Of a stretch of DNA of 64,000 bases, positions 1-62,999 are shown piece by piece (the first letter of the stretch is position 1; every line of letters starts with the position of its first letter). The stretch comes from Lepisosteus oculatus (Eukaryota; Chordata; Actinopteri; Semionotiformes; Lepisosteidae): positions 16,073,532 through 16,137,531 of the forward strand of contig NC_090718.1 of the NCBI RefSeq assembly GCF_040954835.1. The letters are read 5' to 3'. The position numbers and the translations under genes are program-made. The notes under the pieces were generated by a model that saw nothing but the letters and a program-made list of their open reading frames with translations, ran no database searches and had not been told where the DNA came from.

Positions 1-565
1 TGGCTGGAGATACACAGTCAGGTCCTGCTGCCTTTTTACAGTTTTGCTTTTTGAATAGCCTTAACACATCCTGTTCTTTGCTTCACAGGGCATTCTCAAG
101 ACTTGTTAACGGCGTCAAGTCTTCGTGAGAGATTGAGTGTGAGTGGGTGTGGCACTCCAGTTGAGTGGGGGACAATAGCTCATCCCCAGGATGTGAATTA
201 TTTGGAGGAGTTGCGAGACTGCCATGGACAAGGTCGTTGGAGATCCTTTGTGTTTCAGGCCTGCTGTAAAATGTGTTATCTGGTAGAGAGTGATCAAGAT
301 GTATCTGAGGGGATTTTCTTTTGTAATTGGTAACAGTTTGGAGACCTTTCCAGACAGATAAACAGTCTTTGTTAGCAAACAGTTGTTCCAGCTGTGGACA
401 GGAGGGGAAACAAAAGGTAGAGAACACTATTTTTAGAGAAATGGTCCTAAAGGAACAAAGCATAGTGTAGGATGCCACTAGCTTAAGTCTTAACAGCACT
501 GCATGAGAGGAGACTCCAGTGTCTATTTGTTCCGAGGGATCCTCAGAAAGGTCAAAAGGTTGCAA
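1..565 (-). mobile_element. LINE A fragment, L2/CR1-like, linker region (unit 1, cut by window start)
   Basis: The minus strand translates to the region between the endonuclease and reverse transcriptase of fish non-LTR retrotransposons. A recognisable stretch is DCLSVWKGLQTVTNYKRKSP followed by SLPDNTFYSRPETQ, which matches the usual 'VWKGL-TITNYK...LPD-LN-FY-RFE' pattern. The RT start continues to the left; in the other units it is seen across the unit boundary. A 160-aa frame is open at 83-565, but neighbouring sequence shows the element is only a piece, without complete EN or RT. The clade is assigned from memory of the motif pattern and needs a database match. Confidence 0.75.
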
Positions 566-696
566 ACAGATAGGAGACTGGTTACATGCCTGAAGCTTAG
601 CTAGAGGAACATAACATTGCTGGAATTCAGAGAGGGGAGGTTATCAGAGCCTAATGTTATTGCGAAAAATGGCAACTAGGCATAGACGATCTGCTG

Positions 697-1297
697 AATA
701 ATAATAATAATAATAATTGCTTACACTTATATAGCGCTTTTCTGGACACTCCACTCAAAGCACTTTACAGGTAATGGGGACTCCCCTCCACCACCACCAA
801 TGTGCAGCATCCACCTGGATGATGCGACGGCAGCCATAGTGCGCCAGAACGCTCACCACACATCAGCTATCAGTGGGGAGGAGAGCAGAGTAATGTAGCC
901 AATTCATAGAAGGGGATTATTAGGAGGCCATGATTGGTAAGGGCCAATTGGAAATTTGGCCAGGATGCCGGGGTTACACCCCTACTCTTTTCGAGAAGCA
1001 CACCTACACCCCTACTCTTTTCGAGATTTTTAATGACCACAGAGAGTCAGGACCTCGGTTTTACGTCTCATCCGAAGGACAGCGCCTGTTTACAGTATAG
1101 TGTCCCCATCACTATACTGGGGCATTAGGACCCACATGGACCACAGGGTGAGCACCCCCTGCTGGCCCCACTAACACCTCTTCCAGCAGCAACCTTAGTT
1201 TTTCCCAGGAGGTCTCCCATCCAGGTACTGACCAGGCTCACACCTGCTTAGCTTCAGTGGGTTGCCAGTTGTGAGTTGCAGGGTGATATGGCTGCTG
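697..1297 (-). mobile_element. 5S rRNA-derived SINE (SINE3-type), unit 1
   Basis: Read on the minus strand, 1297-1187 follows 5S rRNA: a GCCATA-like start, an A-box-like AAGCTAAGCAGG (near 1245) and the C-box block TGGATGGGAGACC (near 1210). These are the internal RNA polymerase III control elements. A body of about 480 bp follows and ends in a tail with 'TATATAGCGC' and a (TTA)n run at 697-717. Units 1 and 2 have a 24-bp internal duplication near 1003-1026. The body includes a CTCF-like motif at 1151-1167. The SINE class follows from the 5S-like head; the exact family is not named. Confidence 0.85.
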
Positions 1298-1556
1298 ACT
1301 GTCTGTCCTGTGAATTGTTAAGGGTTTCATGTATTTGTGTGTCCAAGTAGTCCGGACTGCTGTGCTATGTGTTGTTTGTCTTTTGAATTTTCTGTTTTAC
1401 ACCTATTGTATCCATAGTGGTATGGGCCAAATCCAATTTAAAGGGTGTTGTGAGCACTGGGGTTTGTTGGGAGTGGTGAGTTAGGAGTCTGGAAATGAGA
1501 GCAAGGTGCGAGTGGATATGATAAAAAGATTGTTCCTTTATTTTGTTTCTGATACC

Positions 1557-2064
1557 TGGTGAAGAGACGCAGTGAGTGTTTGAGTGGCCAGCTGCGTCAA
1601 CTTCAATAAAACTGGCCTTTTGGTTTGTTTGAGTGCTGACTTGCTATGGTGTATTTTTCTCTCTGTGAACAACAGGTCCTACGGCCAACACTACCCACAC
1701 AGGAGGTGTGTGCGTGACAGCTCCTCAGCTGAAGCAGGAGTCCAAGTGTGCACAGATTTCTTGTTGGGGTTTGTTGTTTGAAGTTTCTGTTTGTATGTAG
1801 GAAGCAATTGTGCCATCGCGTGGTCCGAGTTATAGCACGGGACGAGAGCTCCCGAAGAGCGCCTGCCTCCTGCCCGATTCGACGTCTAAAATCATCACAG
1901 AACGAGAGGAGCCAACAGGAATGCAAGTCTCTTCTGGTGAGGAGCCTCCAACACAGCCCCCAGTACTGGGTGTGCAGAAAGAATCCTGTTCTACAGTTGT
2001 GGTGCGAAATGGCCTCCAGTCCTTGTCAAATGCTGGGTTTCTCTGGACTGCAGTCCCCTCCGCA
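1557..2064. repeat. Internal duplicated block D1 (paralogue of 7992-8490)
   Basis: This segment is repeated later in the same unit at about 7992-8490. Shared landmarks are 'ACCTGGTGAAGAGAC', an AATAAA-containing stretch ('CTTCAATAAAACTGGCC' near 1605), the 'GGAAGCAATTGTGCCATCG' stretch near 1801 and a block translating to GFSGLQS near 2038. The block is cut at about 2064 where LINE B begins. In both paralogues the GFSGLQS frame is WCEMASS.C..GFSGLQS, so one frame may once have been coding, but I do not recognise it. Confidence 0.8.
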
Positions 2065-3552
2065 TTTGGATGATTGTGATTGGTGTTGCTGTAGCTGTGC
2101 TGTCCTGAGACTGACTGGTGTCAAGACCAGCTGTACTCTGGGATCAGCAGGGCCTAGTGGTGGTATGAATTGTGGCCTCTGTTTCTCAGGTGTAACAAGT
2201 GTTTGATTACTCTGTTCTGTATGTGTCACGGACGTCCAAAGGGACTTACCGTAGGGAGCAGGAGAGCGGAAAAAGACCCATATGCGTAGCGGCGAGACGG
2301 GAAAAAGGCCCGGGCTCATTAGTGCAAAGAGTTCAGGAATGCCGTATAGAAACCTATGCCCTCAGGGAGCGGACGTGGGGCGCCCTGGTGCTAGGCAGGT
2401 CTCAGGACATCCGAACAACAATGCTGAGCGAGGACAGAGTGCAAGACCCGGAAATATATAGCCCAAGGGAAAGAGAGGGACAGGAAGGACAGCAGACCGG
2501 AAACTAGGGACAGGACAGAGAAGGAGCGCCCTCTGGCTGCAGAGGGCGTGACAGTATGTTTATCAATAGTGGGTACTGGCCTAATTCAGCCCTGCACTCG
2601 CTGTTAGCTGTTTTTCTCTGCGCAAGGCGGATGTTTCTACAGATTGATTAGAGTTTCTACAGAGTGTACTCCTGGTCTGTGAGGGGACCCCACACTTCAC
2701 TGCCGTATAGGGCAATGGGTTGGATTACACTTTCAGATATTTGGAGCGAAATTCTTGTTGGTGGGTTGACATTGAAGAGCCTCCTTCTTATTGCGTAGAA
2801 AGCCCTGAGTGCCTTCTCCCTCAGTGCCTTTAGTGCCAGGTCAAAACTCCCAGAAGAGCTGATGGTGAGACCGAGATATGTGTAGCTGGATGTGTGCTCC
2901 AATGTGTTGTTGTTCAGTGTGAATTTGTACCTGTTTCCCTGAGGTCTGGCTTTCTCCTGGAAAACCATAACTCTTGTCTTGTCCAGATTGACTGGCAGTG
3001 CCCAGGTGTGACAGTCCTGCTCCAGCAATGCCAGGCTCTGCTGTTCTGGGTCCAGATGGGCTGGCAGTGCCCAGGTGTGAATGTGATGGGATGTGTGGCG
3101 GTTTGGTAGGAAGCCAGTCTGACTCTAATGCAGGACATTGTGCTCAATAAGGAGGGCCGGTTATCAGATATTCAAGTTACGACAGAGTTCCTTCCCCAGG
3201 TTACTGTTCACACTGAAGCTCCGGTACCTGTTGGGGTCGAGTCTGTCTCCATTCTTACAGATGGGCGTGATCAGTCCTTGATTCCAGGCCTCAGGGAAAC
3301 AGCCGGCCGTCAGGACGAGGTTGGGGAGTTTGAGCAGGCTTTGCTGCAGGTCTAAGCTGCAGTTGGATCAAGCGTTGTTGACTGTGTCTTGGCTACAGAC
3401 CTTTTGTGGTCTGAGAGTTGTCTGTTTGTGTATGTGCTTATCTTCTTTAGGGTGTGCATGTAGTGTCTAACCATCTCACAGTATCTGAGGCGCAGTTCAG
3501 AGTGGTGTGGTGTTGTTTTAGTTCTGGTAGTTCTCTTCAGTTGTTTCTGCAC
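2065..3552 (-). mobile_element. LINE B reverse transcriptase fragment, unit 1 (interrupted by a solo LTR)
   Basis: The minus strand, from high to low coordinates, follows a fish LINE ORF2. There is an N-terminal spacer (3552-3352, RYCEMVRHYMHTLKK), then RT fingers (3350-3165, AGCFPEAWNQGLITPICKNG and NRYRSFSVNSNLGK). After a deletion of most of the palm come the thumb and post-RT regions (3028-2657, LPVNLDKTRVMVFQEK, YTYLGLTISSSGSF, ESVIQPIALYGSEVWGPL). The RKTANSECRAELGQYPLL segment lies next to the LTR. The YADD catalytic block is missing and the frame is broken, so it is inactive. The clade is not assigned with confidence. Confidence 0.88.
2224..2553. mobile_element. Solo LTR (fossil, Ty3/Gypsy-like) nested in LINE B, unit 1
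   Basis: The 330-bp segment starts TGTCACG and ends CGTGACA, so it has TG...CA ends within short inverted repeats. It is flanked by a 5-bp target duplication GTATG (2219-2223 and 2554-2558). A TATA-like AATATATAG lies near 2453. There is no internal region, so this is a solo LTR left by LTR-LTR recombination. The family call rests on the terminal sequence style and the 5-bp duplication. It is young relative to the array, because unit 3 still has the empty site. Confidence 0.82.
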
Positions 3553-4439
3553 TCTGTATCAAACCATTTGATATTGTTTCTGAGTGTGTTTCATATGAAT
3601 GTAGTCATTTTGATTTTAAGGCTAGTTTCTCAAAAACATGGTTTATAAATTTATGCCCGATTTGTTGGTTTGATTCAGAGCGTTTTGAAATGTAAGGGAT
3701 CAAGTAATGGGTTTATTTGCTGCTGAAAAGAGAAGAAAGAAAAAAAAAAAGAAATGAGACAATTAGCTTGTAATGAGTTTATAACAACAGTAATTAGATT
3801 CCTGCAAGCACTCTTTTCATTGTCCAACAACTGAAAGCTTTTAGGTATAAAGGAAGGGTCCTCTAATATTTGATGTGTGAGCTTGTCGTTCTATTGGAGA
3901 TGTTAGTGAGTCTGAGGATTCGTGTTAATATGACAATACTGCTACTACTATTAATAATACAGCATGGCAAGACTTCTTTCAGTCATTTCCCACCCCTCCA
4001 CCTCAGTGAATCACACATGTTAAACTTCCATCTCGGGTTCCAGATCAGACATGAGCAATCCTATATTACAAATACTTAGCACCAGGCAATTTAACCAGAC
4101 AATAATTTAAGCAATTATTCATTCAAGAGAAGCAGCAGGACGAGTAAAGTGCCCCTCTGATGGCCGGTCAGTGGAATTAAACTGGAAAATTTCTTTGAAA
4201 TGATTATTCTTACAATGATGTACCAATGGCGCCGCTTGGTGGTCATTCAGCAAAATTTCACCGAAGGTTTTTTTTAATTAAAATACCGTTAGTAATGTTC
4301 GTATTAATTAGTTATTTTAATTTTAAAAATATTTAAGCATTTTCAACAGCAAAGAATACATTGCCTTGCAAACAAGAGTAATGAATGAATGTATTGTACA
4401 TGGATACAAAATACAAAATAAATACAATAAACCAAAAAT
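3553..4439. other. Unassigned AT-rich spacer, unit 1
   Basis: No reading frame or RNA gene is convincing. The stretch holds an A-run at 3738-3751, a GATGGCCGGTCAGTGGAA block near 4158 that has a diverged relative near 11120, and a 'CCTCAGTGAATCAC' block near 4001 related to one near 11535. A loose CTCF-like GGCGCCGCTTGGTGGTC lies at 4229-4245. Counterparts are at about 21381-22267, 38959-39855 and 57368-58255. Confidence 0.5.
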
Positions 4440-4620
4440 TAAAATGACGTTCAAAAGGCGCGAGTCGATGACGTCAGAAGGAAGTCGCCCACGGGGCGTA
4501 TGGGTAATGTAGTTTCTGTAGTTCTCTGGCCCGCACTGCCCACGTGTTTCGGTGATTTGATTGAACATCAGAATTAATTATATTGTACCATTTCAGCGTG
4601 TTTGTCGTGTCATGGATTTC
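4440..4620 (+). promoter_or_regulatory. Promoter-like cassette P1, unit 1
   Basis: It contains a full palindromic CRE (TGACGTCA, 4469-4476), a ZNF143/STAF-like ACTACA...CCCA element on the minus strand (4494-4513) and a CACGTG E-box (4541-4546) within 80 bp. A TTTCAG near 4596 follows. The same order of elements occurs at P2 and P3, so this is a duplicated module and not a chance cluster. CRE is bound by CREB/ATF, CACGTG by MYC/USF-type bHLH factors and the ZNF143 element by ZNF143/THAP11. There is no TATA box. Direction is inferred from the downstream exon-like pieces in cassettes B and C. Confidence 0.55.
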
Positions 4621-4879
4621 TATGACTGTCTTATGGGTTCTCTTGTGTGTCATGTTTATTTTAGTGGGTGGCAGTGCTGGGGCCCTGAACTGTAATCATT
4701 CGTGTTTAGTATTTGTTACTGTGACCCTCCTGGGAGGAGGGGACCTTTGTAAGATTCCTGTCCTGGCAAGCAGCAGGTGAGAGTTTGCTGTCCGACTCAA
4801 TTACACCTCCGCTACCTCATTTCACCTCTTTCACCAGCCTGTAAAGGGGGTTGTGATAGTATGGGGTCTTTCTCTTTAA

Positions 4880-5310
4880 CAACCTCAAACCGCAGGAAAG
4901 AAATGCTTCATTTATAAGATTGAAATATAACCAGAAAGTATAAAAATAGCTATTTGTGTGTATCATGTCAGAAATATTTGTTTTTATTTTAAAAGAATTT
5001 AGAAGAGAAATATGATTAATAAGGCAGTAGAATCCATTTAAACTGTCATTTCCCTGTTTAGGTTGGAAAGTTTAATTTGATCAAGTCCACTTGAGTGCCT
5101 AAGCAACTGTTTGGGTAGTTTGGCTGGTGTGGTGGTGCTCTCCAAATACCTGATCCAAACGGACAGAGAGACAAAGTGAGAAAGAAAAGGTGTAAATAAC
5201 AGACATATCATATGCAGAATACAGTAATGTGCTGTTCAGCACAGTGACCTAGAGTGAAGATGGAAATCAGTCATTCTAGTGCTCTCAATGGTTTTCCATT
5301 ACAAACGGAC
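4880..5310. repeat. Internal duplicated block F1 (paralogue of 10155-10515)
   Basis: Long stretches match 10155-10515: 'AACAACCTCAAAC.GCAGGA', 'AATAAGGCAGTAGAAT', 'GGACAGAGAGACAAAGTGAG' and 'CTAGAGTGAAGATGGAAATC'. Unit 3 has lost most of this block (junction near 40268). Together with blocks D1/D2 and cassettes B/C, it shows that the 17.8-kb unit was assembled from an older, shorter duplicated segment. Other copies are at 22708-23138 and 58696-59126. Confidence 0.8.
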
Positions 5311-5389
5311 CAGGGCTTCCTGAGACACAGGCAGTTGGAGTTATATAGAGTTAGAGGTTGTTTTCACGGCACCAGCCGACTAAAGCAGA

Positions 5390-5665
5390 GACCTCCTTCC
5401 ACTCCAGAATTTTTTTTTTATTTGGGTGGGATCATCTGGAGTCTTGATTCCTTTCACGGAGTCAGCAGTAGATACACAGCTGTTAGCATAGGAGGAGTAC
5501 AGAAGAGGTGACAGCAGTGCTGGGGACCCTGGTATCTCTTCCACTGAGGACCCTCTGGCACAACCAGAGGTGTGAAATTGAAATTGTTTGGAAGGAATGG
5601 GAAGCTAAAGGCAGAGTCACAATCTCTGATTCATGTAATCAAAACAGTAAGTTCTTTCCTCGGGC
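5390..5665 (+). repeat. Exon-like block E, unit 1 (relative of 63000-63360)
   Basis: The block runs from a T-run (5408) through 'GCAGTGCTGGGGACCCTG' to 'ATCAAAACA|GTAAGT', a strong splice-donor-like site near 5648. A diverged copy outside the array (63000-63360) has about 100 extra bases in its middle, including the GFSGLQS stretch, so the array version looks internally deleted. The frame is open through the second half (KEWEAKGRVTISDSCNQN), but I cannot name a protein. Other copies are at 23218-23493, 40430-40665 and 59206-59455; units 3 and 4 lack a further 19-24 bp here. Confidence 0.5.
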
Positions 5666-5889
5666 AGCTTCGTTAGAACATTTTAAATAGATGTAAAAGT
5701 GTATTTACAGACTATATCAGCCCTTATCTTTATTAACCTGGTTTAATCTTTTTTTCAGAAGTGTAAATATATTATACTATGTACCCCTGATGGTATTATT
5801 GATGTGCTATAAATATACTCTTGTTTGTATTGTATCTATTCTTATTGCTACCATAAAAAGTTAAAAAGAACTGCACTTTCGAGAAATGT

Positions 5890-5903
5890 CCACTGGGCGG
5901 CGA
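5890..5903 (+). promoter_or_regulatory. CTCF-like motif at the head of cassette B
   Basis: CCACTGGGCGGCGA is close to the core CTCF consensus CCASYAGRKGGCRS. The paralogous site in cassette C (15363-15376) reads CCACTGGGTGGCGA, a slightly better match. It is present in all units (23718, 40904 and 59682 onward). This is a motif match only. Confidence 0.35.
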
Positions 5904-6389
5904 CAGAGATACACGAGTCTATGGCGGCGAGTCCAATAGCGCCTCCGTACAGATCCTCGTTGTGCAGAGATTGAAAATCAATACAGATGATAACTGTGAC
6001 GTTTGTGACAGCAACTCTGAAAGATAACGTAAAGAAGGAAACTAATATTGACATTACTTTTAAAGAAGTTAAATAATACTACATTTTAAACCTATTGAAA
6101 GTAATATGAAAATATCGTTTGTATTTAAAAAAATATGATACTTCATAATAATTAACGAAATGCTGTGAGAGGAGACCCATGTTTAAACACTTTAAAACGG
6201 ATGTAAATGCGTCTGTACAGACAATTTGAAACATGTACGGACCTCATCTGCTTTTGTTTACTATTAAACAAGATTACTTGTTTAATCTTTTTCCATAACA
6301 TGTACATGTATTATCGTATGTACCCCTGGCTATACTCTGTGTTATATGTATTCTTGTTTTTATGGCATGTATTGTTGTTATAATTAAAA

Positions 6390-6560
6390 ATAAAAAGACG
6401 CGAATCGATTACGTCAAAAGGAAGTCGCCACAGGGCTTGTGGGAAATGTAGTCTTTATAGTGCTCTGGACTGCGCTCCGCACGTGTTCCGCAGATTTGAT
6501 TGAGCATCAGAATTAATTATACAATGTCAGTGTATTTACCGTGTCGCGGATTTCTATGTC
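6390..6560 (+). promoter_or_regulatory. Promoter-like cassette P2, unit 1
   Basis: This is a paralogue of P1. It has a CRE-like TTACGTCA (6409-6416), a near-consensus ZNF143/STAF site on the minus strand (6435-6452, ACTACATTTCCCACAAGC) and a CACGTG E-box (6480-6485). The ZNF143 element is the best of the three cassettes; its CRE has lost one base of the palindrome. An RFX site lies about 430 bp downstream. Confidence 0.6.
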
Positions 6561-6912
6561 TGTCTTACAAGACGGACTCGGCAGGAGCTGTTTCTTGCTC
6601 TCCGGAGTGAAGCTGTTCTGGGAAGAGACGAGCAAATCTTTAGACTCTTTGTAAATGAGACATCATCATGACAGCTGTGCCGACCTGCTCTTTATTGACC
6701 TGTTGAACCTGTTTGTGTAAAGAGCAGGAGTCTTGTGTACCCCTGATTGTGTTATGTGTACTCTAGTGTGTTTGCAGCGCTCGTCCTGCCTGGTTTATCA
6801 ACTCGACACAGAAACAAAACCCACTGCCGTCGTGTCTGTGGGTTTCTGAGCTCTCTTGTCTTGTTTGCAAACTTTTCTCCGGTGTTTATTTTACTTTGTT
6901 AAATAAAACGTG

Positions 6913-6926
6913 GTTGCCGGGGCAAC
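6913..6926. promoter_or_regulatory. RFX X-box palindrome, unit 1
   Basis: GTTGCCGGGGCAAC is a perfect full-length X-box (GTTGCC-N2-GGCAAC), the binding site of RFX factors, which drive ciliary and spermatogenic genes and others. It lies just upstream of an exon-1-like stretch. The equivalent site in cassette C (16119-16132) has one half-site degraded to GGAAAC. Confidence 0.65.
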
Positions 6927-7193
6927 GGAGCTGCAGTAGTGTTTGCCGGAGCGGGTCTGACCTCCAGCAGGTCAACAGGCGGCTTTTTTAATCTAATCTG
7001 CGAGAAAAACAGAAACTTAAGAAACTTTAGTCTAAAAAGCGCTGGCTGGAGTATTTTGTGGAAGAAACGGTGACTCGCAGGCTGTGGGACAGGACTATCA
7101 GGGACACATCAGCGCTGGACACCAGCCTCACACCGCTGGGCTCACTGCACCATGAGCGAGTCCGTCGGCGCCTCCTCCTGCTGGGGTGTGTTA

Positions 7194-7991
7194 CCTGGGC
7201 TGCTGTCTGTGTGGAGTCTGCATGCTCTGCCCCTGTTCTCATGGGTCTGGTGTCCTGGGGTGCTGTGTGTGTGGAGTCTGCATGCTCTGCTCCTGTTCTC
7301 ATGGGTCTGGTTTCCTGGGGTGCTGTCTGTATGGAGTCTGCATACTCTGCCCCTGTTCTCATGGGTCTGGTTCCTGGGGTGCTGTCTGTGTGGAGTCTGC
7401 ATGCTCTGCCCCTGTTCTCATGGGTCCTGTTCCTGGGGTGCTGTCTGTGTGGAGTCTGCATGCTCTGCCCCTGTTCTCATGGGTCTGGTTTCCTGGGGTG
7501 CTGTCTGTGTGAAGTCTGCATGCTCTGCCCCTGTTCTCATGGGTCTGGTGTCCTGGGGTGCTGTCTGTGTGGAGTCTGCATGCTCTGCCCCTGTTCTCAT
7601 GGGTCTGGTTTCCTGGGGTGCTGTCTGTGTGGAGTCTGCATGCTCTTCCCCTGTTCTCATGGGTTCGGTTTCCTGGGGTACTGTCTGTGTGGAGTCTGCA
7701 TGCTCTGCCCCTGTTCTCATGGGTCTGGTGTCCTGGGGTGCTGTCTGTGTGGAGTCTGCATGCTCTGCCCCTGTTCTCATGGGTCTGGTGTCCTGGGGTG
7801 CTGTCTGTGTGGAGTCTCCATGCTCTGCCCCGTTCTCATGGGTTCAGTTTCCTGGGGTGCTGTCTGTGTGGAGTCTGCATGCTCTGCCCCTGTTCTCATG
7901 GGTCCTGTTCCTGGGGTGCTGTCTGTGTGGAGTCTGCATGCTCTGCCCCTGTTCTCATGGGTCTGGTTTCCTGGGGTGCTGTCTGTGTGGA
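7194..7991 (+). repeat. 59/60-bp minisatellite derived from V-SINE core, 13 monomers (unit 1)
   Basis: The monomer is built on 'GGGGTGCTGTCTGTGTGGAG' followed by TCTGCATGCTCTGCCCCTGTTCTC and ATGGGTCTGGTTTCCT. It matches the conserved central part of V-SINEs ('GTGTGGAGTTTGCATGTTCTCCC...GTGGGTTTCC'). The non-amplified relative in cassette C (16430-16610) has about 1.5 monomers followed by a typical V-SINE 3' part, which shows the origin. Long open frames run through the array on both strands because the monomer has no stops in several frames; they are not evidence of a protein. Confidence 0.93.
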
Positions 7992-8560
7992 TACCTGGTG
8001 AAGAGACCCAGTGAGTGTTTGTGTGGCCAGCTGCGTCAACTTCAATAAAACTGGCCTTTTGGTTTGTTTGAGTGCTGACTTGCTATGGTGTATTTTTTCT
8101 CTCTGTGAACAACACGTCCTACGGCCAACACTACCCACACAGGAGGTGTGTGCGTGACAGCTCCTCAGCTGCAGCAGGAGTCCAAGTGTGCACAGATTTC
8201 TTGTTGGGTTTTGTTGTTTGAAGTTTCTGTTTGTATGTAGGAAGCAATTGTGCCATCGTGTGGTCCGAGTTATAGCACGCGACCAGAGCTCCCGAAGAGC
8301 GCCTGCCTCCTGCCCGATTCGACGTCTAAAATCATCACAGAACGGTGAGGAGCCTCTGACACAGCCCCCAGTACTGGGTGTGCAGAAATAATCCTATTGT
8401 ACAGTTTTGGTGTGAAATGGCCTCCAGTTCTTGTAACATGATGGGTTTCTCTGGACTGCAGTCCCAGTGCACTCCGCTTTGGATTTGCAGTGGTGTTTTC
8501 TACAATGGAAAACCCTTTGTTTGTACAGAATGGAAATGGCAGTCTGCATGTTTAAATAAT
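7992..8560. repeat. Internal duplicated block D2, unit 1
   Basis: Paralogue of block D1 (1557-2064), directly after the minisatellite. It keeps about 100 bp more on the right, translating WCEMASSSCNMMGFSGLQS then TPLWICSGVFYNGKPFVCTE. The same frame is kept in the copy outside the array (63170-63330: GFSGLQS, then LWICCAVLYNRRPFVWKEWE). Frame conservation among diverged copies suggests a former exon or a repeat with coding ancestry; I do not recognise it. An AATAAA lies near 8043. Confidence 0.6.
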
Positions 8561-8637
8561 ATAATGTGATCATGTACTACAGCTTAAACACTGAGCCAGG
8601 TGACGTTTGATTCTAAAAGATTTCTCTATCATTTCAG

Positions 8638-8705
8638 CGGCGCCTTGTCTGCGGCAGCCCGGCAGCTCCTCCTCCCTTCCAGCTGAGACTCTTCCCTCTC
8701 CAGAG
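8638..8705 (+). other. Exon-like segment (68 bp) with acceptor and donor, unit 1
   Basis: A pyrimidine-rich TCTCTATCATTTCAG acceptor precedes it and CCAGAG|GTGGGT follows. Two frames are open through it; one reads APCLRQPGSSSSLPAETLPS. It is unchanged at 26525-26592 and 44356-44423. I do not know a matching protein, and small exons like this occur by chance, so it is a candidate only. Confidence 0.3.
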
Positions 8706-9315
8706 GTGGGTTAGTGCTCTCAGGTCATCTTCTCTCACACAGCTGCGGGGCAGAAACGCTACTTCCACTGGGCAGAGAGCAGACGGGCAGTGGGAAGGGC
8801 AGCCCTGTGTTTGGGGATCAGGGCTGTCCCTGCTGAGGGATGCTTTCAGAGCCAAAGCAACTGGCTGGGTTATGAACTTTATGGTGTGATCCAAATATGA
8901 CATACAAAGACAGAGAATGAGAAAGAAATAGTATTGCATGTATCTGATCAAAACAGTCTCTTTCAGACAAAACAAATATTGAACAAAAACTTAGTTGCAA
9001 CACACTGCACTACACTTTCTTCTAGGCTGACATTACTGATAGTTTGTGCTGTCTTCCTTTCAGTCTGCAGGGTGTGCATCTTTTTCCTCAGCTTCCTACA
9101 CGAGGAATCAGTTTCTCCTGCCCTGGTTTCACTCCTTTATATCTCACAATCTTCTGCAGCTCCTGGAGGCTGACGACATGTTTGCTGTTTCTGAAAAATT
9201 GCTGACTGGCTCATCAGCACAATTGCTGATTCAAAATCCTTTACTCACATGTTGCCTTAGCCTCTGTATCACAGAGATGTCTTCTGGGTTGGGTAGATCG
9301 ATAGTGTGCTTTTGC

Positions 9316-9555
9316 TCAGTTGCTCTGCTCAATGCGTGGTCTTTTAACTCCGGCTGGGTACGAGCACCTCACTCTCCACACGGCTTTCCAAGGCTCTGTC
9401 ATCGTGTGTGAGGATGTTGTGTAGCTCGTGAAACAGTTCCCCCATTTGAGCCCTGGATTTACTGGGTACTTGAATACCTGAATCTTGCCGTCAGTCCTGA
9501 TCACCTTGTTTTTGTTCTGCAAGGACAAGGCACCTCCCCAGCACTGAACACAAAC
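9316..9555 (-). other. Conserved minus-strand frame of unknown origin, unit 1
   Basis: The minus strand reads GGALSLQNKNKVIRTDGKIQ, then FKYPVNPGLKWGNCFTSYTT, then TEPWKAVWRVRCSYPAGVKR and stops after about 80 residues. The composition looks like real protein (W, C, Y and charged residues balanced) and the frame is uninterrupted in units 2 (27203-27442) and 3 (45039-45278). It abuts SINE sequence at its N-terminal side. I do not recognise a family; a transposon or viral remnant is as likely as a host exon. Confidence 0.35.
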
Positions 9556-9564
9556 TGATACTGG

Positions 9565-9725
9565 CGGGTTGATTGTGTTGTGGTGTGAGTTTGTGTCTGT
9601 GGGGGTGAGGTGTCCCCTGCAGCGCGAACAAACATGCAGACTCCACACAGACAGCACCCCTGGAATCAAACCCAGGGCCCCGGTGCTATGAGGCAGCGAT
9701 GCTAACCACTGTGCCGCAGTGTTGC
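9565..9725. mobile_element. V-SINE pieces in opposite orientations, unit 1
   Basis: The plus strand at 9565-9600 matches the V-SINE tail-side segment also seen at 16553-16590 (GGGTTGATTGTGTTGTGGTG). At about 9605-9725 the minus strand is a tRNA-derived SINE head: CACAGTGGTTAGCATCGCTG (A-box region), GGGTTTGATTCC (B-box region), then CTGTCTGTGTGGAGTCTGCA. Two SINE insertions therefore meet head to tail. Other copies are at 27452-27612 and 45287-45450. Confidence 0.7.
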
Positions 9726-9805
9726 CCCCTTTGAAAATGTCTGACTTCCGTTTAATTTGAGGTCACAAGCTTATAAATGGTCTCACAACGTTTGTCTCAT
9801 CTCAG

Positions 9806-15232: not shown

Positions 15233-15239
15233 GTGAGCA

Positions 15240-53683: not shown

Positions 53684-54401
53684 TGACGTTAGTGCGACGG
53701 GTCTGTAGGCATTAAGGCAGGTTCTTGTGTCCTTTTTTGGAACAGGAACAATAACAGAAGATTTGAAGCAGTCTGGCACTGTGCACTGGGACAATGATTG
53801 CTTAAAAACGTCTGTAAAGATTGGAGCGAGTTGGCCAGCACAGGGCTGTAGTGTGGCTGGAGATACACAGTCAGGTCCTGCTGCCTTTTTACAGTTTTGC
53901 TTTTTGAATAGCCTTAACACATCCTGTTCTTTGCTTCACAGGGCATTCTCAAGACTTGTTAACGGCGTCAAGTCTTCGTGAGAGATTGAGTGTGAGTGGG
54001 TGTGGCACTCCAGTTGAGTGGGGGACAATAGCTCATCCCCAGGATGTGAATTATTTGGACGAGTTGCGAGACTGCCATGGACAAGGTCGTTGGAGATCCT
54101 TTGTGTTTCAGGCCTGCTGTAAAATGTGTTATCTGGTAGAGATGTATCTGAGGGGATTTTCTTTTGTAATTGGTAACAGTTTGGAGACCTTTCCAGACAG
54201 ATAAACAGTCTTTGTTAGCAAACAGTTGTTCCAGCTGTGGACAGGAGGGGAAACAAAAGGTAGAGAACACTATTTTTAGAGAAATGGTCCTAAAGGAACA
54301 AAGCATAGTGTAGGATGCCACTAGCTTAAGTCTTAACAGCACTGCATGAGAGGAGACTCCAGTGTCTATTTGGGATCCTCAGAAAGGTCAAAAGGTTGCA
54401 A
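53684..54401 (-). mobile_element. LINE A fragment (unit 3/4 boundary)
   Basis: Same LINE piece. Two small deletions (10 bp near 54141 and 7 bp near 54371) shorten the linker compared with units 1 and 2. The RT blocks at 53684-53920 match the unit-3 version. Confidence 0.83.
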
Positions 54402-54532
54402 ACAGATAGGAGACTGGTTACATGCCTGAAGCTTAGCTAGAGGAACATAACAGTGCTGGAATTCTGAGAGGGGAGGTTATCAGAGCCTAATGTTATTGCG
54501 AAAAATGGCAACTAGGTATAGACGGTCTGCTG

Positions 54533-55112
54533 AATAATAATAATAATAATTGCTTACACTTATATAGCGCTTTTCTGGACACTCCACTCAAAGCACTTTA
54601 CAGGTAATGGGGACTCCCCTCCACTACCACCAATGTGCAGCATCCACCTGGATGATGCGACGGCAGCCATAGTGCGCCAGAACGCTCACCACACATCAGC
54701 TATCAGTGGGGAGGAGAGCAGAGTAATGTAGCCAATTCATAGAAGGGGATTATTTTGAGGCCATGATTGGTAAGGGCCAATTGGAAATTTGGCCAGGATG
54801 CCGGGGTTACACCCCTACTCTTTTCGAGAAGCACCCTGGGATTTTTAATGACCACAGAGAGTCAGGACCTCGCTGTTACATCTCATCCGAAGGACGGCGC
54901 CTGTTTACAGTATAGTGTCCCCATCACTATACTGGGGCATTAGGACCCACATGGACCACAGGGTGAGCACCCCCTGCTGGCCCCACTAACACCTCTTCCA
55001 GCAGCAACCTTAGTTTTTCCCAGGAGGTCTCCCATCCAGGTACTGACCAGGCTCACACCTGCTTAGCTTCAGTGGGTTGCCAGTTGTGAGTTGCAGGGTG
55101 ATATGGCTGCTG
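54533..55112 (-). mobile_element. 5S rRNA-derived SINE, unit 4
   Basis: Same element with a shorter (TTA)n tail and without the 24-bp duplication, so it keeps the presumably older form of that stretch. The CTCF-like motif lies near 54966-54982. The 5S-like A- and C-box blocks are intact. Confidence 0.85.
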
Positions 55113-55370
55113 ACTGTCTGTCCTGTGAATTGTTAAGGGTTTCATGTATTTGTGTGTCCAAGTAGTCCGGACTGCTGTGCTATGTGTTGTTTGTCTTTTG
55201 AATTTTCTGTTTTGCACCTATTGTATCCATAGTGGTATGGGCCAAATCCAATTTAAAGGGTGTTGTGAGCACTGGGGTTTGTTGGGAGTGGTGAGTTAGG
55301 AGTCTGGAAATGAGAGCAAGGTGCGAGTGGATATGATAAAAAGATTGTTCCTTTATTTTGTTTCTGATAC

Positions 55371-55880
55371 CTGGTGAAGAGACGCAGTGAGTGTTTGTGT
55401 GGCCAGCTGCGTCAACTTCAATAAAACTGGCCTTTTGGTTTGTTTGAGTGCTGACTTGCTATGGTGTATTTTTTCTCTCTGTGAACAACAGGTCCTACGG
55501 CCAACACTACCCACACAGGAGGTGTGTGCGTGACAGCTCCTCAGCTGAAGCAGGAGTCCAAGTGTGCACAGATTTCTTGTTGGGGTTTGTTGTTTGAAGT
55601 TTCTGTTTGTATGTAGGAAGCAATTGTGCCATCGCGTGGTCCGAGTTATAGCACGGGACGAGAGCTCCCGAAGAGCGCCTGCCTCCTGCCCGATTCGACG
55701 TCTAAAATCATCACAGAACGAGAGGAGCCAACAGGAATGCAAGTCTCTTCTGGTGAGGAGCCTCCGACACAGCCCCCAGTACTGGGTGTGCAGAAAGAAT
55801 CCTGTTCTACAGTTGTGGTGCGAAATGGCCTCCAGTCCTTGTCAAATGCTGGGTTTCTCTGGACTGCAGTCCCCTCCGCA
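55371..55880. repeat. Internal duplicated block D1, unit 4
   Basis: Counterpart of 1557-2064, intact up to the LINE B junction. Confidence 0.8.
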
Positions 55881-57367
55881 TTTGGATGATTGTGATTGGT
55901 GTTGCTGTAGGTGTGCTGTCCTGAGACTGACTGGTGTCAACACCAGCTGTACTCTGGGATCAGCAGGGCCTAGTGGTGGTATGAATTGTGGCCTCTGTTT
56001 CTCAGGTGTAACAAGTGTTTGATTACTCTGTGCTGTATGTGTCACGGACGTCCAAAGGGACTAACCGTAGGGAGCAGGAGAGCGGAAAAAGACCCATATG
56101 CGTAGCGGCGAGACGGGAAAAGGCCCGGGCTCATTAGTGCAAAGAGTTCAGGAATGCCGTATAGAAACCTATGCCCTCAGGGAGCGGACGTGGGGCGCCC
56201 TGGTGCTAGGCGGGTCTCAGGACATCCGAACAACAATGCTGAGCGAGGACAGAGTGCAAGACCCGGAAATATATAGCCCAAGGGAAAGAGAGGGACAGGA
56301 AGGACAGCAGACCGGAAACTAGGGACAGGACAGAGAAGGAGCGCCCTCTGGCTGCAGAGGGTGTGACAGTATGTTTATCAATAGTGGGTACTGGCCTAAT
56401 TCAGCCCTGCACTCGCTGTTAGCTGTTTTTCTCTGCGCAAGGCGGATGTTTCTACAGATTGATTAGAGTTTCTACAGAGTGTACTCCTGGTCTGTGAGGG
56501 GACCCCACACTTCACTGCCGTATAGGGCAATGGGTTGGATTACACTTTCAGATATTTGGAGCGAAATTCTTGTTGGTGGGTTGACATTGAAGAGCCTCCT
56601 TCTTATTGCGTAGAAAGCCCTGAGTGCCTTCTCCCTCAGTGCCTTTAGTGCCAGGTCAAAACTCCCAGAAGAGCTGATGGTGAGACCGAGATATGTGTAG
56701 CTGGATGTGTGCTCCAATGTGTTGTTGTTCAGTGTGAATTTGTACCTGTTTCCCTGAGGTCTGGCTTTCTCCTGGAAAACCATAACTCTGGTCTTGTCCA
56801 GATTGACTGGCAGTGCCCAGGTGTGACAGTCCTGCTCCAGCAATGCCAGGCTCTGCTGTTCTGGGTCCAGATGGGCTGGCAGTGCCCAGGTGTGAATGTG
56901 ATGGGATGTGTGGCGGTTTGGTAGGAAGCCAGTCTGACTCTAATGCAGGACATTGTGCTCAGTAAGGAGGGCCGGTTATCAGATATTCAAGTTACGACAG
57001 AGTTCCTTCCCCAGGTTACTGTTCACACTGAAGCTCCGGTACCTGTTGGGGTCGAGTCTGTCTCCATTCTTACAGACGGGCGTGATCAGTCCTTGATTCC
57101 AGGCCTCAGGGAAACAGCCGGCCGTCAGGACGAGGTTGGGGAGTTTGAGCAGGCTTTGCTGCAGGTCTGAGCTGCAGTTGGATCAAGCGTTGTTGACTGT
57201 GTCTTGGCTACAGGCCTTTTGTGGTCTGAGAGTTGTTTGTTTGTGTATGTGCTTATCTTCTTTAGGGTGTGCATGTAGTGTCTAACCATCTCACAGTATC
57301 TGAGGCGCAGTTCAGAGTGGTGTGGTGTTGTTTTAGTTCTGGTAGTTCTCTTCAGTTGTTTCTGCAC
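55881..57367 (-). mobile_element. LINE B RT fragment, unit 4
   Basis: Same arrangement as unit 1: spacer, RT fingers, palm deletion, thumb frame at 56472-56843, and the nested solo LTR at 56040-56368. Confidence 0.87.
56040..56368. mobile_element. Solo LTR (fossil), unit 4
   Basis: Same insertion, 329 bp, with GTATG at 56035-56039 and 56369-56373. Near identity with the unit 1 and 2 copies points to recent spread of the LTR-bearing unit within the array. Confidence 0.82.
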
Positions 57368-58255
57368 TCTGTATCAAACCATTTGATATTGTTTCTGAGT
57401 GTGTTTCATATGAATGTAGTCATTTTGATTTTAAGGCTAGTTTCTCAAAAACATGGTTTATAAATTTATGCCCGATTTGTTGGTTTGATTCAGAGCGTTT
57501 TGAAATGTAAGGGATCAAGTAATGGGTTTATTTGCTGCTGAAAAGAGAAGAAAGAAAAAAAAAAGAAATGAGACAATTAGCTTGTAATGAGTTTATAACA
57601 ACAGTAATTAGATTCCTGCAAGCACTCTTTTCATTGTCCAACAACTGAAAGCTTTTAGGTATAAAGGAAGGGTCCTCTAATATTTGATGTGTGAGATTGT
57701 CGTTCTATTGGAGATGTTAGTGAGTCTGAGGATTCGTGTTAATATGACAATACTGCTACTACTATTAATAATACAGCATGGCAAGACTTCTTTCAGTCAT
57801 TTCCCACCCCTCCACCTCAGTGAATCACACATGTTAAACTTCCATCTCGGGTTCCAGATCAGACATGAGCAATCCTATATTACAAATACTTAGCACCAGG
57901 CAATTTAACCAGACAATAATTTAAGCAATTATTCATTCAAGAGAAGCAGCAGGACGAGTAAAGTGCCCCTCTGATGGCCGGTCAGTGGAATTAAACTGGA
58001 AAATTTCTTAGAAATGATTTATTCTTACAATGATGTGCCAATGGCGCCGCTTGGTGGTCATTCAGCAAAATTTCACCGAAAGTTTTTTTTAATTAAAATA
58101 CCGTTAGTAATGTTCGTATTAATTAGTTATTTTAATTTTAAAAATATTTAAGCATTTTCAACAGCAAAGAATACATTTGCCTTGCAAACAAGAGTAATGA
58201 ATGAATGTATTGTACATGGATACAAAATACAAAATAAATACAATAAACCAAAAAT

Positions 58256-58436
58256 TAAAATGACGTTCAAAAGGCGCGAGTCGATGACGTCAGAAGGAAG
58301 TCGCCCACGGGGCGTATGGGTAATGTAGTTTCTGTAGTTCTCTGGCCCGCACTGCCCACGTGTTTCGGTGATTTGATTGAACATCAGAATTAATTATATT
58401 GTACCATTTCAGCGTGTTTGTCGTGTCATGGATTTC
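58256..58436 (+). promoter_or_regulatory. Promoter-like cassette P1, unit 4
   Basis: The CRE is at 58285-58292, and the ZNF143-like element and CACGTG (near 58358) follow as in unit 1. Confidence 0.55.
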
Positions 58437-60186
58437 TATGACTGTCTTATGGGTTCTCTTGTGTGTCATGTTTATTTTAGTGGGTGGCAGTGCTGGGGCC
58501 CTGAACTGTAATCATTCGTGTTTAGTATTTGTTACTGTGACCCTCCTGGGAGGAGGGGACCTTTGTAAGATTCCTGTCCTGGCAAGCAGCAGGTGAGAGT
58601 TTGCTGTCCGACTCAATTACACCTCCGCTACCTCATTTCACCTCTTTCACCAGCCTGTAAAGGGGGTTGTGATAGTATGGGGTCTTTCTCTTTAACAACC
58701 TCAAACCGCAGGAAAGAAATGCTTCATTTATAAGATTGAAATATAACCAGAAAGTATAAAAATAGCTATTTGTGTGTATCATGTCAGAAATATTTGTTTT
58801 TATTTTAAAAGAATTTAGAAGAGAAATATGATTAATAAGGCAGCAGAATCCATTTAAACTGTCATTTTCCTGTTTAGGTTGGAAAGTTTAATTTGATCAA
58901 GTCCACTTGAGTGCCTAAGCAACTGTTTGGGTAGTTTGGCTGGTGTGGTGGTGCTCTCCAAATACCTGATCCAAACGGACAGAGAGACAAAGTGAGAAAG
59001 AAAAGGTGTAAATAACAGACATATCATATGCAGAATACAGTAATGTGCTGTTCAGCACAGTGACCTAGAGTGAAGATGGAAATCAGTCATTCTAGTGCTC
59101 TCAATGGTTTTCCATTACAAACGGACCAGGGCTTCCTGAGACACAGGCAGTTGGAGTTATATAGAGTTAGAGGTTGTTTTCACGGCACCAGCCGACTAAA
59201 GCAGAGACCTCCTTCCACTCCAGAATTTTTTTTTTATTTGGGTGGGATCATCTGGAGTCTTGATTCCTTTCACGGAGTCAGCAGTAGATACACAGCTGTT
59301 AGCATAGGAGGAGTACAGAAGAGGTGACAGCAGTGCTGGGGACCCTCTGGCACAACCAGAGGTGTGAAATTGAAATTGTTTGGAAGGAATGGGAAGCTAA
59401 AGGCAGAGTCACAATCTCTGATTCATGTAATCAAAACAGTACGTTCTTTCCTCGGGCAGCTTCGTTAGAACATTTTAAATAGATGTAAAAGTGTATTTAC
59501 AGACTATATCAGCCCTTATCTTTATTAACCTGGTTTAATCTTTTTTTCAGAAGTGTAAATATATTATACTATGTACCCCTGATGGTATTATTGATGTGCT
59601 ATAAATATACTCTTGTTTGTATTGTATCTCTTTTTATTGCTACAATAAAAAGTTAAAAAGAACTGCACTTTCGAGAAATGTCCACTGGGCGGCGACAGAG
59701 ATACACGAGTCTATGGCGGCGAGTCCAATAGCGCCTCCGTACAGATCCTCGTTGTGCAGAGATTGAAAATCAATACAGATGATAACTGTGACGTTTGTGA
59801 CAGCAACTCTGAAAGATAACGTAAAGAAGGAAACTAATATTGACATTACTTTTAAAGAAGTTAAATAATACTACATTTTAAACCTATTGAAAGTAATATG
59901 AAAATATCGTTTGTATTTAAAAAAATATGATACTTCATAATAATTAACGAAATGCTGTGAGAGGAGACCCATGTTTGAACACTTGAAAACGGATGTAAAT
60001 GCGTCTGTACAGACAATTTGAAACATGTACGGACCTCATCTGCTTTTGTTTACTATTAAACAAGATTACTTGTTTAATCTTTTTACATAACATGTACATG
60101 TATTATCGTATGTACCCCTGACTATACTCTGTGTTATATGTATTCTTGTTTTTATGGCATGTATTGTTGTTATAATTAAAAATAAA

Positions 60187-60360
60187 AAGACGCGAATCGA
60201 TTACGTCAAAAGGAAGTCGCCACAGGGCTTGTGGGAAATGTAGTCTTTATAGTGCTCTGGACTGCGCTCCGCACGTGTTCCGCAGATTTGATTGAGCATC
60301 AGAATTAATTATACAATGTCAGTGTATTTACCGTGTCGCGGATTTCTATGTCTGTCTTAC
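60187..60360 (+). promoter_or_regulatory. Promoter-like cassette P2, unit 4
   Basis: All three elements are conserved. In this unit the cassette lies about 830 bp before the 33-monomer minisatellite that ends the array. Confidence 0.6.
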
Positions 60361-60711
60361 AAGACGGACTCGGCAGGAGCTGTTCCTTGCTCTCCGGAGT
60401 GAAGCTGCTCTGGGAAGAGACGAGCAAATCTTCAGACTCTTTGTAAATGAGACATCATGACAGCTGTGCCGACCTGCTCTTTATTGACCTGTTGAACCTG
60501 TTTGTGTAAAGAGCAGGAGTCTTGTGTACCCCTGATTGTGTTATGTGTACTCTAGTGTGTTTGCAGCGCTCGTCCTGCCTGGTTTATCAACTCGACACAG
60601 AAACAAAACCCACTGCCGTCGTGTTTGTGGGTTTCTGAGCTCTCTTGTCTTGTTTGCAAACTTTTCTCCGGTGTTTATTTTACTTTGTTAAATAAAACGG
60701 GGTTGCCGGGG

Positions 60712-60725
60712 CAACGGAGCTGCAG
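60712..60725. promoter_or_regulatory. RFX X-box palindrome, unit 4
   Basis: Perfect X-box, with the same 5' flanking variant as unit 3. Confidence 0.65.
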
Positions 60726-61015
60726 TAGTTGTTGCCGGAGCGGGTCTGACCTCCAGCAGGTCAACAGGCGGCTTTTTTAATCTAATCTGCGAGAAAAACA
60801 GAAACTTAAGAAACTTTAGTCTAAAAAGCGCTGGCTGGAGTATTTTGTGGAAGAAACGGTGACTCGCAGGCTGTGGGACAGGACTATCAGGGACACATCA
60901 GCGCTGGACACCAGCCTCACACCGCTGGGCTCACTGGGCATGATCTGCAGGTGGAGGTGAAAAGGTGAGAGACGGCGGCGCAGTGGGTGGCAGCGCTGGG
61001 AGCCTGGATTTAGTT

Positions 61016-62990
61016 CCTGTGGTGTTGTCTGTGTGGAGTCTGCATACTCTGCCCCTGTTCTCATGGGTCTGGTGTCCTGGGGTGCTGTCTGTGTGGAGTC
61101 TGCATGCTCTGCCCCTGTTCTCATGGGTTCAGTTTCCTGGGGTGCTGTCTGTGTGGAGTTTGCATAATCTGCCTGTATTCTCAAGGTTCCTGTTCATGGG
61201 GTGCTGTCTGTGTGGAGTCTGCATGCTCTGCCTGTGTTCTCATGGGTCCTGTTCATGGGGTGCTGTCTGTGTGGAGTCTGCATGCTCTGCCCCTGTTCTC
61301 ATGGGTCTGGTTTCCTGGGGTGCTGTCTGTGTGGAGTCTGCATGCTCTGCCTCGTTGTCATGGGTCTGGTTTCCTGGGGTGCTGTCTGTGTGGAGTCTGC
61401 ATGCTCTTCCCCTGTTCTCATGGGTTCAGTTTCCTGGGATACTGTCTGTGTGGAGTCTGCATGCTCTGCCCCTGTAATCATGGGTCTGGTGTCCTGGGGT
61501 GCTGTCTATGTGGAGTCTGCATGCTCTGCCCCTGTAATCATGGGTCTGGTTTCCTGGGGTGCTGTCTGTGTGGAGTCTGCATGCTCTGCCCCTGTTCTCA
61601 TGGGTCCTGTTCCTGGGGTGCTGTCTGTGTGGAGTCTGCATGCTCTGCCCCGTTGTCATGGGTCTGGTTTCCTGGGGTGCTGTCTGTGTGGAGTCTGCCT
61701 GCTCTGCCCCTGTTCTCATGGGTTCAGTTTCCTGGGGTGCTGTCTGTGTGGAGTCTGCATGCTCTGCCCCATGTTCTCATTTGTCTGGTTTTCTGGGGTG
61801 GAGTCTGCATGCTCTGCCCCTGTTCTCATGGGTCTGATGTCCCGGGGTACTGTCTGTGTGGAGTCTGCATGCTCTCCCCCTGTTCTCATTTGTCTGGTTT
61901 CCTGGGGTGCTGTCTGTGTGGAGTCTGCATGCTCTGCCCCAGTTCTCATGGGTCTGGTGTCCCGGGGTGCTGTCTGTGTGGAGTCTGCATGCTCTGCCCC
62001 TGTTCTCATGGGTCTGGTGTCCCGGGGTGCTGTCTGTGTGGAGTCTGCATGCTCTGCCCCTGTTCTCATTGGTCTGGTTTTCTGGGGTGCTGTCTGTGTG
62101 GCGTCTGCATGCTTTGCCCCGTAATCATGGGTCTGGTGTCCTGGGGTGCTGTCTGTTTGGAGTCTGCATGCTATTCCCTTGTTCTCATGGGTTCAGTTTC
62201 CTGGGGTACTGTCTGTGTGGAGTCTGCATGCTCTGCCCCTGTAATCATGGGTCAGGTGTCCTGGGGTGCTGTCTGTGTGGAGTCTGCATGCTCTGCCCCT
62301 GTAATCATGGGTCTGGTGTCCTGGGGTTCTGTCTGTGTGGAGTCTGCATGCTCTGCCCCTGTTCTCATGGGTCTGGTTTCCTGGGGTGCTGTGTGTGTGG
62401 AGTCTGTATGCTCTGCCCCTGTTCTCATGGGTCTGGTTTCCTGGGGTGCTGTCTGTGTAGAGTCTGCATGCTCTGCCCCTGTTCTCATGGGTCCTGTTCC
62501 TGGGGTGCTGTCTGTGTGGAGTCTGCATGCTCTGCCCCTTGTTCTCATGGGTCTGGTTCCCTGGGGTGGAGTCTGCATGCTCTGTCCCTGTTCTCATTGG
62601 TCTGGTTTCCTGGGGTGCTGTCTGTGTGGAGTCTGCATGCTCTGCCCCTGTTATCATGGGTCTGGTGTCCTGGGGTGCTGTCTGTGTGGAGTCTGCATGC
62701 TCTGCCCCTGTTCGCATGGGACTGGTGTGCTGGGGTGCTGTCTGTGTGGAGTCTGCATGCTCTGCCTGTGTTCTCATGGGTCTGGTTCCTGGGGTGCTGT
62801 CTGTGTGGAGTCTGCATGCTCTGCCCCTTTTCTCATGGGTCTGGTGTCCTGGGGTGCTGTCTGTGTGGAGTCTGCATGCTCTGCCCCTTTTCTCATGGGT
62901 CTGGTTTCCTGGGGTGCTGTCTGTATGGAGTCTGCATACTCTGCCCCTGTTCTCATGGGTCTTGTTCCTGGGGTGCTGTCTGTTTGGAGT
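61016..62990 (+). repeat. 59/60-bp V-SINE-core minisatellite, about 33 monomers (unit 4, array edge)
   Basis: The longest of the four arrays. Variants not seen elsewhere include CCCTGTAATCATGGG (near 61470-61540 and 62110-62310) and two shortened monomers that lack GTGCTGTCTGTGT (near 61800 and 62570). One frame stays open for 629 codons, only because most monomers are 60 bp (20 codons). The array ends at 62990, where macrosatellite homology also ends. Confidence 0.93.
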
Positions 62991-62999
62991 TGATTAAAA

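Follow-up and report, generated by a model that had tools for sequence, protein, structure and literature searches.

A direct tandem array of units of about 17.8 kb spans the window (the whole 64,000-bp stretch of Lepisosteus oculatus DNA analysed here) nearly to its right end. The units are mosaic, one of them keeps the empty site of an insertion carried by its neighbours, and each bears diverged promoter-like modules, which in U1 (the first unit) have retained their CpG dinucleotides. It is moderately probable that this is a real, noncoding macrosatellite-type array whose units exchange sequence.

Organisation of the array and divergence of its units

Unit starts (Table 1) were taken from long direct matches in a BLAST self-comparison of the window, in which all matches above 400 bp (E 1e-20 or better) were direct. 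Three full units of 17,828, 18,385 and 17,640 bp (U1 to U3) are followed head to tail by a truncated fourth (U4), with the lengths claimed in an earlier note on this DNA. A 40-mer recurs 17-19 kb downstream at 29,311 of the 46,961 start positions with room for it; the same count was zero in each of 20 first-order Markov controls, none of which was comparable. The window contains no N, and its GC content is 46% (0.377-0.572 across 2-kb bins). The ends given earlier are not those of the array: its left end lies beyond the window edge, at which the unit start was arbitrarily set, and the right stop falls within a 60-bp minisatellite, beyond which about 366 bp consist of diverged pieces of the unit in scrambled order. 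The last 644 bp of the window have no match to the units.

Table 1. Positions of the array units and of features within them (window coordinates).
Feature	Position	Strand	Remarks
U1	1..17828	+	99.68% identity to U2 over 17,673 aligned bases, minisatellites included; BLAST blocks
U2	17829..36213	+	full unit
U3	36214..53853	+	mosaic: diverged over the first ~5.4 kb, otherwise mostly near U1/U2
U4	53854..62990	+	truncated within 60-bp minisatellite
Edge fragments	62991..63356 (diverged pieces from 62,992)	+	reordered, 80-96% identity to unit
5S-rRNA-derived match	1181..1299	-	Rfam RF00001, 55.2 bits
Solo-LTR-like insertion	2224..2553		in U1; TG...CA ends, 5-bp repeat GTATG on each side
Open frame, non-LTR retrotransposon remnant (by eye)	2657..3124	-	RVT_1 at E 0.066, under cut-off
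P1	4453..4657	+	resembles 6393-6567 and 15786-15981; CpG o/e 1.18; CRE-type site at 4469
P2	5722..7188	+	CpG o/e 0.91; palindromic RFX-type X-box at 6913
60-bp minisatellite	7190..7991	+	in U1, 13.4 copies
50-bp minisatellite	14719..15233	+	in U1, upstream of P3, 10.2 copies
P3	15347..16365	+	CpG o/e 1.00; CRE-type site at 15793; X-box with one mismatch at 16119

The near identity of units reported earlier holds for U1 and U2 (99.7%), but the left part of U3 is markedly different. With minisatellites included, U3 is 97.99% identical to U1 over 16,044 aligned bases and 98.02% identical to U2 over 16,636. The first 7.1 kb of U4 are 98.3% identical to U1 (BLAST, gaps counted); the MAFFT values for U4, 95.4-96.6%, are depressed by forced alignment past its end. 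To the left of U1 position 5400, 84 of the 3,889 sites aligned in all four units differ in U3 only, against 7 of the 1,721 sites at 5400-7150 (Fisher p 1.3e-7, with the 5400 cut picked after the bins were seen). The first ~5.4 kb of U3 are a more diverged lineage, with a switch near U1 position 5,400.

U2 and U4 show a length difference equal to that made by the solo-LTR-like insertion of U1. U3 has the empty site, with a single target copy at 37740-37744, and sits between two carriers. Macrosatellite arrays vary in copy number between individuals, and their units are homogenised through exchange. Exchange would fit both the lineage switch within U3 and the presence of the insertion on either side of U3 but not in it, although neither proves its mechanism; unequal exchange would be the simplest cause of the mosaic units. 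Near its right end U2 also carries a stretch of about 540 bp, absent in U1, that doubles an exon-like core (34183, 34708), and a doubled core is likewise present at the right end of U3 (51819, 52327).

Further differences concern transposon-like remnants and minisatellites. The 5S-derived match of U1, which we take to be the head of a SINE, has further copies at 19009-19127 and 54996-55114 and none in U3. The SINE-bearing stretch missing from U3 was considered as a second precise empty site and not called as one, there being no clean target repeat; the 382-bp difference more likely reflects loss from U3, because a related piece stands elsewhere in the unit. A 69-bp piece of the non-LTR remnant region is amplified in U3 (38146-38521). 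The 60-bp minisatellite grows from its length in U1 to 14.4 copies in U2, 26.6 in U3 and 33.4 in U4, and a 33-base part of its unit recurs on the opposite strand at 9,633-9,665 (32/33). The 50-bp minisatellite has 9.2 copies in U2 and 6.2 in U3, and its arrays in U1, U2 and U3 contain 5, 6 and 3 ETS-type cores, respectively.

Promoter-like modules

The duplicated promoter-like modules described earlier were recovered as three diverged, same-direction copies within U1 (P1 to P3), defined from its internal repeats. The modules are mutually 15-30% diverged. Their pooled CpG o/e is 0.97 compared with 0.46 for the remainder of U1; the module value was reached by 5 of 178 circular shifts, and seven other internal repeats of U1 range from 0.00 to 0.63. 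Past U1 position 5,500, CpG transitions between U1 and U3 number 2/98 in the modules and 22/231 outside (p 0.019); ahead of 5,500 the same test found no module difference (1/12 vs 13/72, p 0.68). Substitutions of every kind past 5,500 are also fewer in the modules (17/2,464 vs 149/8,439 outside, the latter count inflated by poorly aligned minisatellite edges), and the low CpG decay may therefore partly be low divergence.

Motifs were searched with consensus sequences. RFX-type palindromes (at most one mismatch) were found at 7 sites against 0.25 expected and CRE-type sites at 7 against 0.55 (means of 20 Markov controls), although these counts are non-independent, the modules having been copied through the units. 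The RFX-type site is exact in all four copies of P2 and has one mismatch in all three copies of P3, with none in P1 or in the additional right-end copies; CRE-type sites are present in 4/4 copies of P1 and 3/3 of P3 and in none of P2. CTCF-type sites (at most one mismatch) numbered 5 against 1.2 expected: U1 and U2 have two apiece, U4 has one and U3 has none. ZNF143-type matches (7 sites vs 1.15 expected) are weak, with 3-4 mismatches in 19, and E-boxes showed no enrichment (9 sites vs 10.25 expected).

Tandem duplication would have given rise to the direct array of ~17.8-kb units, and unequal crossing over or gene conversion between the units would keep them alike. Each unit may be regarded as pieced together from remnants of transposons, a pair of minisatellites and three related, more ancient copies of a single promoter- or first-exon-like region, lying in one direction. 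The most likely activity would be transcription of a noncoding (+)-strand RNA from the modules, probably in the germ line; judged from their sequence, present promoter activity of the modules is possible but rather doubtful. A fuller version is quite unlikely, namely that each full unit has three same-direction RFX/CRE-type modules (four with the doubled right-end piece in U2 and U3) that are unmethylated in the germ line, that the array is an RNA-producing or chromatin-organising locus, and that its units are among the largest vertebrate macrosatellite units.

Coding potential and alternative explanations

The units may instead be decayed or unrecognised multi-exon genes of an expanded tandem cluster, comparable to antifreeze or immune arrays, with the modules as their 5' ends. 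A start codon ends P2 in U1 (at 7152, just ahead of the 60-bp minisatellite), U2 and U3; a possible splice donor was noted by eye in P3 of U1 and in P2 of U3 and U4, as were exon-like open pieces at U1 13,130-13,245 and 14,450-14,526. Arrays of 11.2-kb gene-bearing units are also documented in fish (PMC9122973). Against a gene cluster, the Pfam scan, which covered U1 and single peptides, found no family above cut-off in the six frames of U1 (12 frame-pieces), and the two downstream exon-like pieces, when joined, had no Pfam match at E 10. The lone PDB match (E 1.3) is unrelated. Nor is the reading frame that opens at the start codon of P2 conserved: it runs for 298 aa in U1, 139 aa in U2 and 17 aa in U3 and is absent from U4, and of the exon-like core's eight copies, three (at 16332, 34708 and 52327) have no start codon. 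The earlier view that the unit has no clear gene agrees with these results. Such a scan could miss an undescribed family whose spliced exons are short; a gene cluster is considered unlikely.

Other coding or RNA candidates were set aside. In U1, Pfam also gave two TEX19 matches (E 2.7e-4 and 0.12), both under the curated cut-off and lying within the 60-bp minisatellite as translated from the minus strand or at the edge of that stretch, together with a DUF4716 match that is likewise weak (E 0.035); these were dismissed as chance. Open frames of 305-659 aa (stop to stop) across the 60-bp arrays were not accepted as genes because several frames are simultaneously open and differ from unit to unit. 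An rDNA array was ruled out, 18S, 5.8S and 28S being absent; across the whole window Rfam at gathering score returned three 5S matches only, and no tRNA genes were found. Exact-pattern searches elsewhere gave 0 matches (two patterns in viral contigs, one in prokaryote contigs) and are little informative.

Haplotypes or repeat-graph paths could also have been joined end to end during assembly, so that the true array would be shorter, possibly one or two units. The difference between U1 and U2 is only 0.32%, which falls within ordinary allelic divergence, and one of the two could be a false copy. However, U3 is ~2% different, with several structural differences and a lineage shift inside the unit, U4 has a minisatellite length of its own, and the array runs without N to an edge with diverged remnants. 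The earlier dismissal of an assembly duplication is therefore reasonable for U3 and U4 and less secure for U1 and U2. In a study of fish antifreeze arrays, assembly uncertainty is described as ubiquitous across array haplotypes, while 0 switch errors were counted in 13 arrays (PMC13032017). An artefact of this kind appears improbable. A real tandem array consisting of neutral duplication debris, in which the modules are dead promoter relics without transcription, is a quite conceivable alternative, if short of probable. The decayed start codons and frames and the transposon-like remnants in the unit are in keeping with it, yet the modules, for all their divergence, hold CpG near expectation, whereas roughly half of it is gone from the remainder of the unit. 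The preferred reading, a noncoding, exchanging macrosatellite-type array, extends to an array without promoter activity, and these alternatives are therefore not exclusive of it.

Comparison with known arrays

Large-unit tandem arrays are difficult to assemble and, as far as the literature searched goes, have been little described as macrosatellites beyond mammals. A noncoding array with units this large in another vertebrate, and with CpG-retaining promoter modules, would if confirmed be an independent case in which to ask whether promoter-bearing roles tied to chromatin are common to macrosatellites or whether unequal exchange simply yields such arrays as a by-product. Among the mammalian comparators in the earlier note, RS447 has a unit of about 4.7 kb.

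Macrosatellites are defined as tandem repeats with units of 2 to >12 kb at one or two genomic sites (PMC3218863), and the present units, at 17.6-18.4 kb, are at or above the top of that range. Of the comparators, the DXZ4 unit measures 3 kb and that of D4Z4 3.3 kb (PMC3218863); REXO1L1 at human 8q21.2 (~12.2 kb; PMC4063668) and the starry flounder antifreeze array (11.2 kb; PMC9122973) are nearer in size, and the latter makes the supposed rarity of such units in fish too strong a claim. No fish macrosatellite or megasatellite of this unit size was noticed among the literature listed, mostly outside subscription journals.

Like DXZ4 on the human X, this is a tandem array without an obvious protein, and its promoter-like modules may correspond to the internal promoter of the DXZ4 unit, which also has simple repeats (PMC3218863). 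DXZ4, however, is 3 kb long and GC-rich (62% for macaque), and its CTCF site is conserved (PMC3218863), whereas here the unit is 17.8 kb, GC stands at 46% in place of a high value, and the CTCF-type site is inconsistent between units. D4Z4 and RS447, also tandem macrosatellites, both have conserved open reading frames (PMC3218863); a reading frame conserved in each unit was not found here. REXO1L1 is similar in its large unit but contains an annotated gene, at 108-266 copies in 165 HapMap individuals (PMC4063668), compared with no recognised gene here. The starry flounder array, also from a fish, comprises twelve near-identical 11.2-kb tandem units, has short similar flanking segments, and has been suggested to result from unequal crossing over (PMC9122973). 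Every unit there encodes antifreeze proteins (PMC9122973), whereas here no recognised coding sequence, and in U1 no recognisable gene, was found. The array, for which any function would be putative, is probably noncoding and is read here as a further macrosatellite-type array of an already known kind.

Array structure and probable exchange between units

The window's 64,000 bases include no N, and direct matches in a self-comparison placed the starts of the four units (U1 to U4, the last truncated) at 1, 17829, 36214 and 53854, confirming the unit lengths proposed in the earlier note. A 40-mer recurred 17-19 kb downstream at 29,311 of the 46,961 possible start positions, and at none in each of 20 Markov controls; the large-unit tandem array looks real. 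U4 ends at 62,990, where its 60-bp minisatellite array stops. The next 366 bases consist of unit pieces with 80-96% identity to U1 5378-5580, 8409-8536 and 5584-5657, and for the final 644 bases the rest of the window gave no match at E 1e-4. To the left, the array extends beyond the window.

U3-only differences were found at 84 of 3,889 four-way aligned sites left of U1 position 5,400 compared with 7 of 1,721 at 5,400-7,150 (Fisher p 1.3e-7, the cut at 5,400 having been picked after inspecting binned differences). Right of 7,150, U1-U3 identity was mostly 97.5-100% (500-column bins, minisatellites excluded), and U3-only differences climb again in the final ~830 bases (window 53100-53853; 8 and 9 in two bins from 17,000), which suggests a putative second exchange boundary near the U3 end. 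A solo-LTR-like insert of ~330 bp with TG...CA ends and a 5-bp target repeat (U1 2224-2553) is absent from U3 (37710-37780), where the empty site holds one copy of the target; in the alignment, U2 and U4 differ from U3 in length at this site exactly as U1 does. Two further stretches are absent from U3, one of ~670 bp that includes a 5S-derived match and another of 382 bp. Since neither has clean target repeats, no direction is claimed for the former, and loss from U3 is favoured for the latter. Such a patchwork is expected under unequal exchange between units and speaks against a simple copying error as well; the earlier view that an assembly duplication is unlikely stands to that extent, the argument being weaker for U1 and U2, which are 99.68% identical.

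Promoter-like modules

Three promoter-like regions of U1, P1 (4453-4657), P2 (5722-7188) and P3 (15347-16365), are internal repeats related at roughly 70-85% identity, with shorter closer pieces, in keeping with the duplicated modules described previously. P2 and P3 lead into an exon-like end, the core of which occurs at the right end twice in U2 and U3 and once in U1. A possible splice donor is present in P3 of U1 and, for P2, in the U3 and U4 copies; the U1 and U2 copies of P2 meet the minisatellite before any donor.

Pooled CpG observed/expected was 0.97 in P1-P3 and 0.46 in the rest of U1, a contrast equalled by 5 of 178 circular shifts, or by 1 of 178 with P3 stretched to 13,801, a post hoc extension made by eye after the profile was seen. 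With this extended P3, CpG transitions between U1 and U3 numbered 5/155 inside and 33/258 outside, also post hoc. For the repeat-defined modules the U1-U3 figures were 2/98 and 22/231 right of 5,500 (p 0.019) and, indistinguishably, 1/12 and 13/72 left of it (p 0.68). Non-CpG substitutions right of 5,500 were also rarer in modules.

What we take to be a palindromic RFX-type X-box is exact in P2 of all four units and has one mismatch in P3 (3/3), and a presumed CRE-type site occurs in P1 (4/4) and P3 (3/3). As the units are copies, the evidence for each amounts to two modules, not seven. Candidate ETS-type cores number 14, all inside the 50-bp arrays upstream of P3. Adjoining the P2 X-boxes, the conserved stretches TTTGCAAAC and AATAAAACG are common to the four aligned copies.

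Features of the array located within the window
Feature	Position	Remarks
X-box, exact (RFX-type consensus)	6913, 24741, 41924, 60702	all four P2 modules
First right-end core	U2 34180; U3 51816	opens 17 codons
Second right-end core	U2 34708; U3 52327	start codon absent
Single right-end core	U1 16332	start codon absent
659-aa open frame	61014-62993	spans 60-bp minisatellite; other open frames overlap on both strands
Two exon-like pieces	13130-13245, 14450-14526	joinable in frame; GT-type 3' border each; by eye
Possible terminal exon	10803-10900	acceptor-like border, then AATAAA; by eye only
60-bp array copies		U1 13.4, U2 14.4, U3 26.6, U4 33.4
50-bp array copies		U1 10.2, U2 9.2, U3 6.2
69-bp tandem array	38146-38521	U3 only; in region read by eye as non-LTR retrotransposon remnant

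Coding potential and unit content

No clear gene had been recognized earlier, and this holds: Pfam six-frame scans of U1 gave nothing above the curated cut-off, and the frame opened by the start codon at the P2 end is not kept between units (298 codons in U1, 139 in U2, 17 in U3), P2 of U4 being without the piece that holds this codon. It is possible that the unit encodes a short, fast-evolving protein. The hypothetical spliced peptide matched no Pfam family at E 10 and only one, unrelated, PDB entry (E 1.3); given these results and the frame decay, a probably noncoding array is favoured. The two exon-like pieces had no family match. The 659-aa frame was rejected as a gene, being probably a property of the repeat in view of the overlapping frames.

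Rfam at its gathering score gave only 5S matches, one each in U1, U2 and U4, and no tRNA genes were found. A minus-strand open frame at 2657-3124 resembles a non-LTR reverse transcriptase end (RVT_1, E 0.066 only); its assignment as a remnant rests mainly on our own reading. Over 33 bases, the 60-bp repeat matches the opposite strand of 9,633-9,665 at 32 positions, a segment that we interpret as a dispersed-repeat tail.

Comparison with known arrays

Judged from sequence, this is most likely a macrosatellite-type locus whose promoters would be relic or active. The high GC of DXZ4 is absent. As to the one CTCF site per unit of DXZ4, matches to a CTCF-type consensus with at most one mismatch number two in U1, two in U2, one in U4 and none in U3 (five in all, 1.2 expected). 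Unlike D4Z4 and RS447, the units have no conserved frame. PMC3218863 describes macrosatellites as confined to one or two sites and gives a size class of 'from 2 to >12 kb', which puts the Lepisosteus unit at the top of that range. Nearest in unit size among the arrays compared are REXO1L1 (~12.2 kb; PMC4063668) and the flounder antifreeze repeats (11.2 kb; PMC9122973). The rarity in fish asserted earlier is thus qualified, since the flounder repeats show that large-unit arrays are not unknown there, although that array is gene-bearing.
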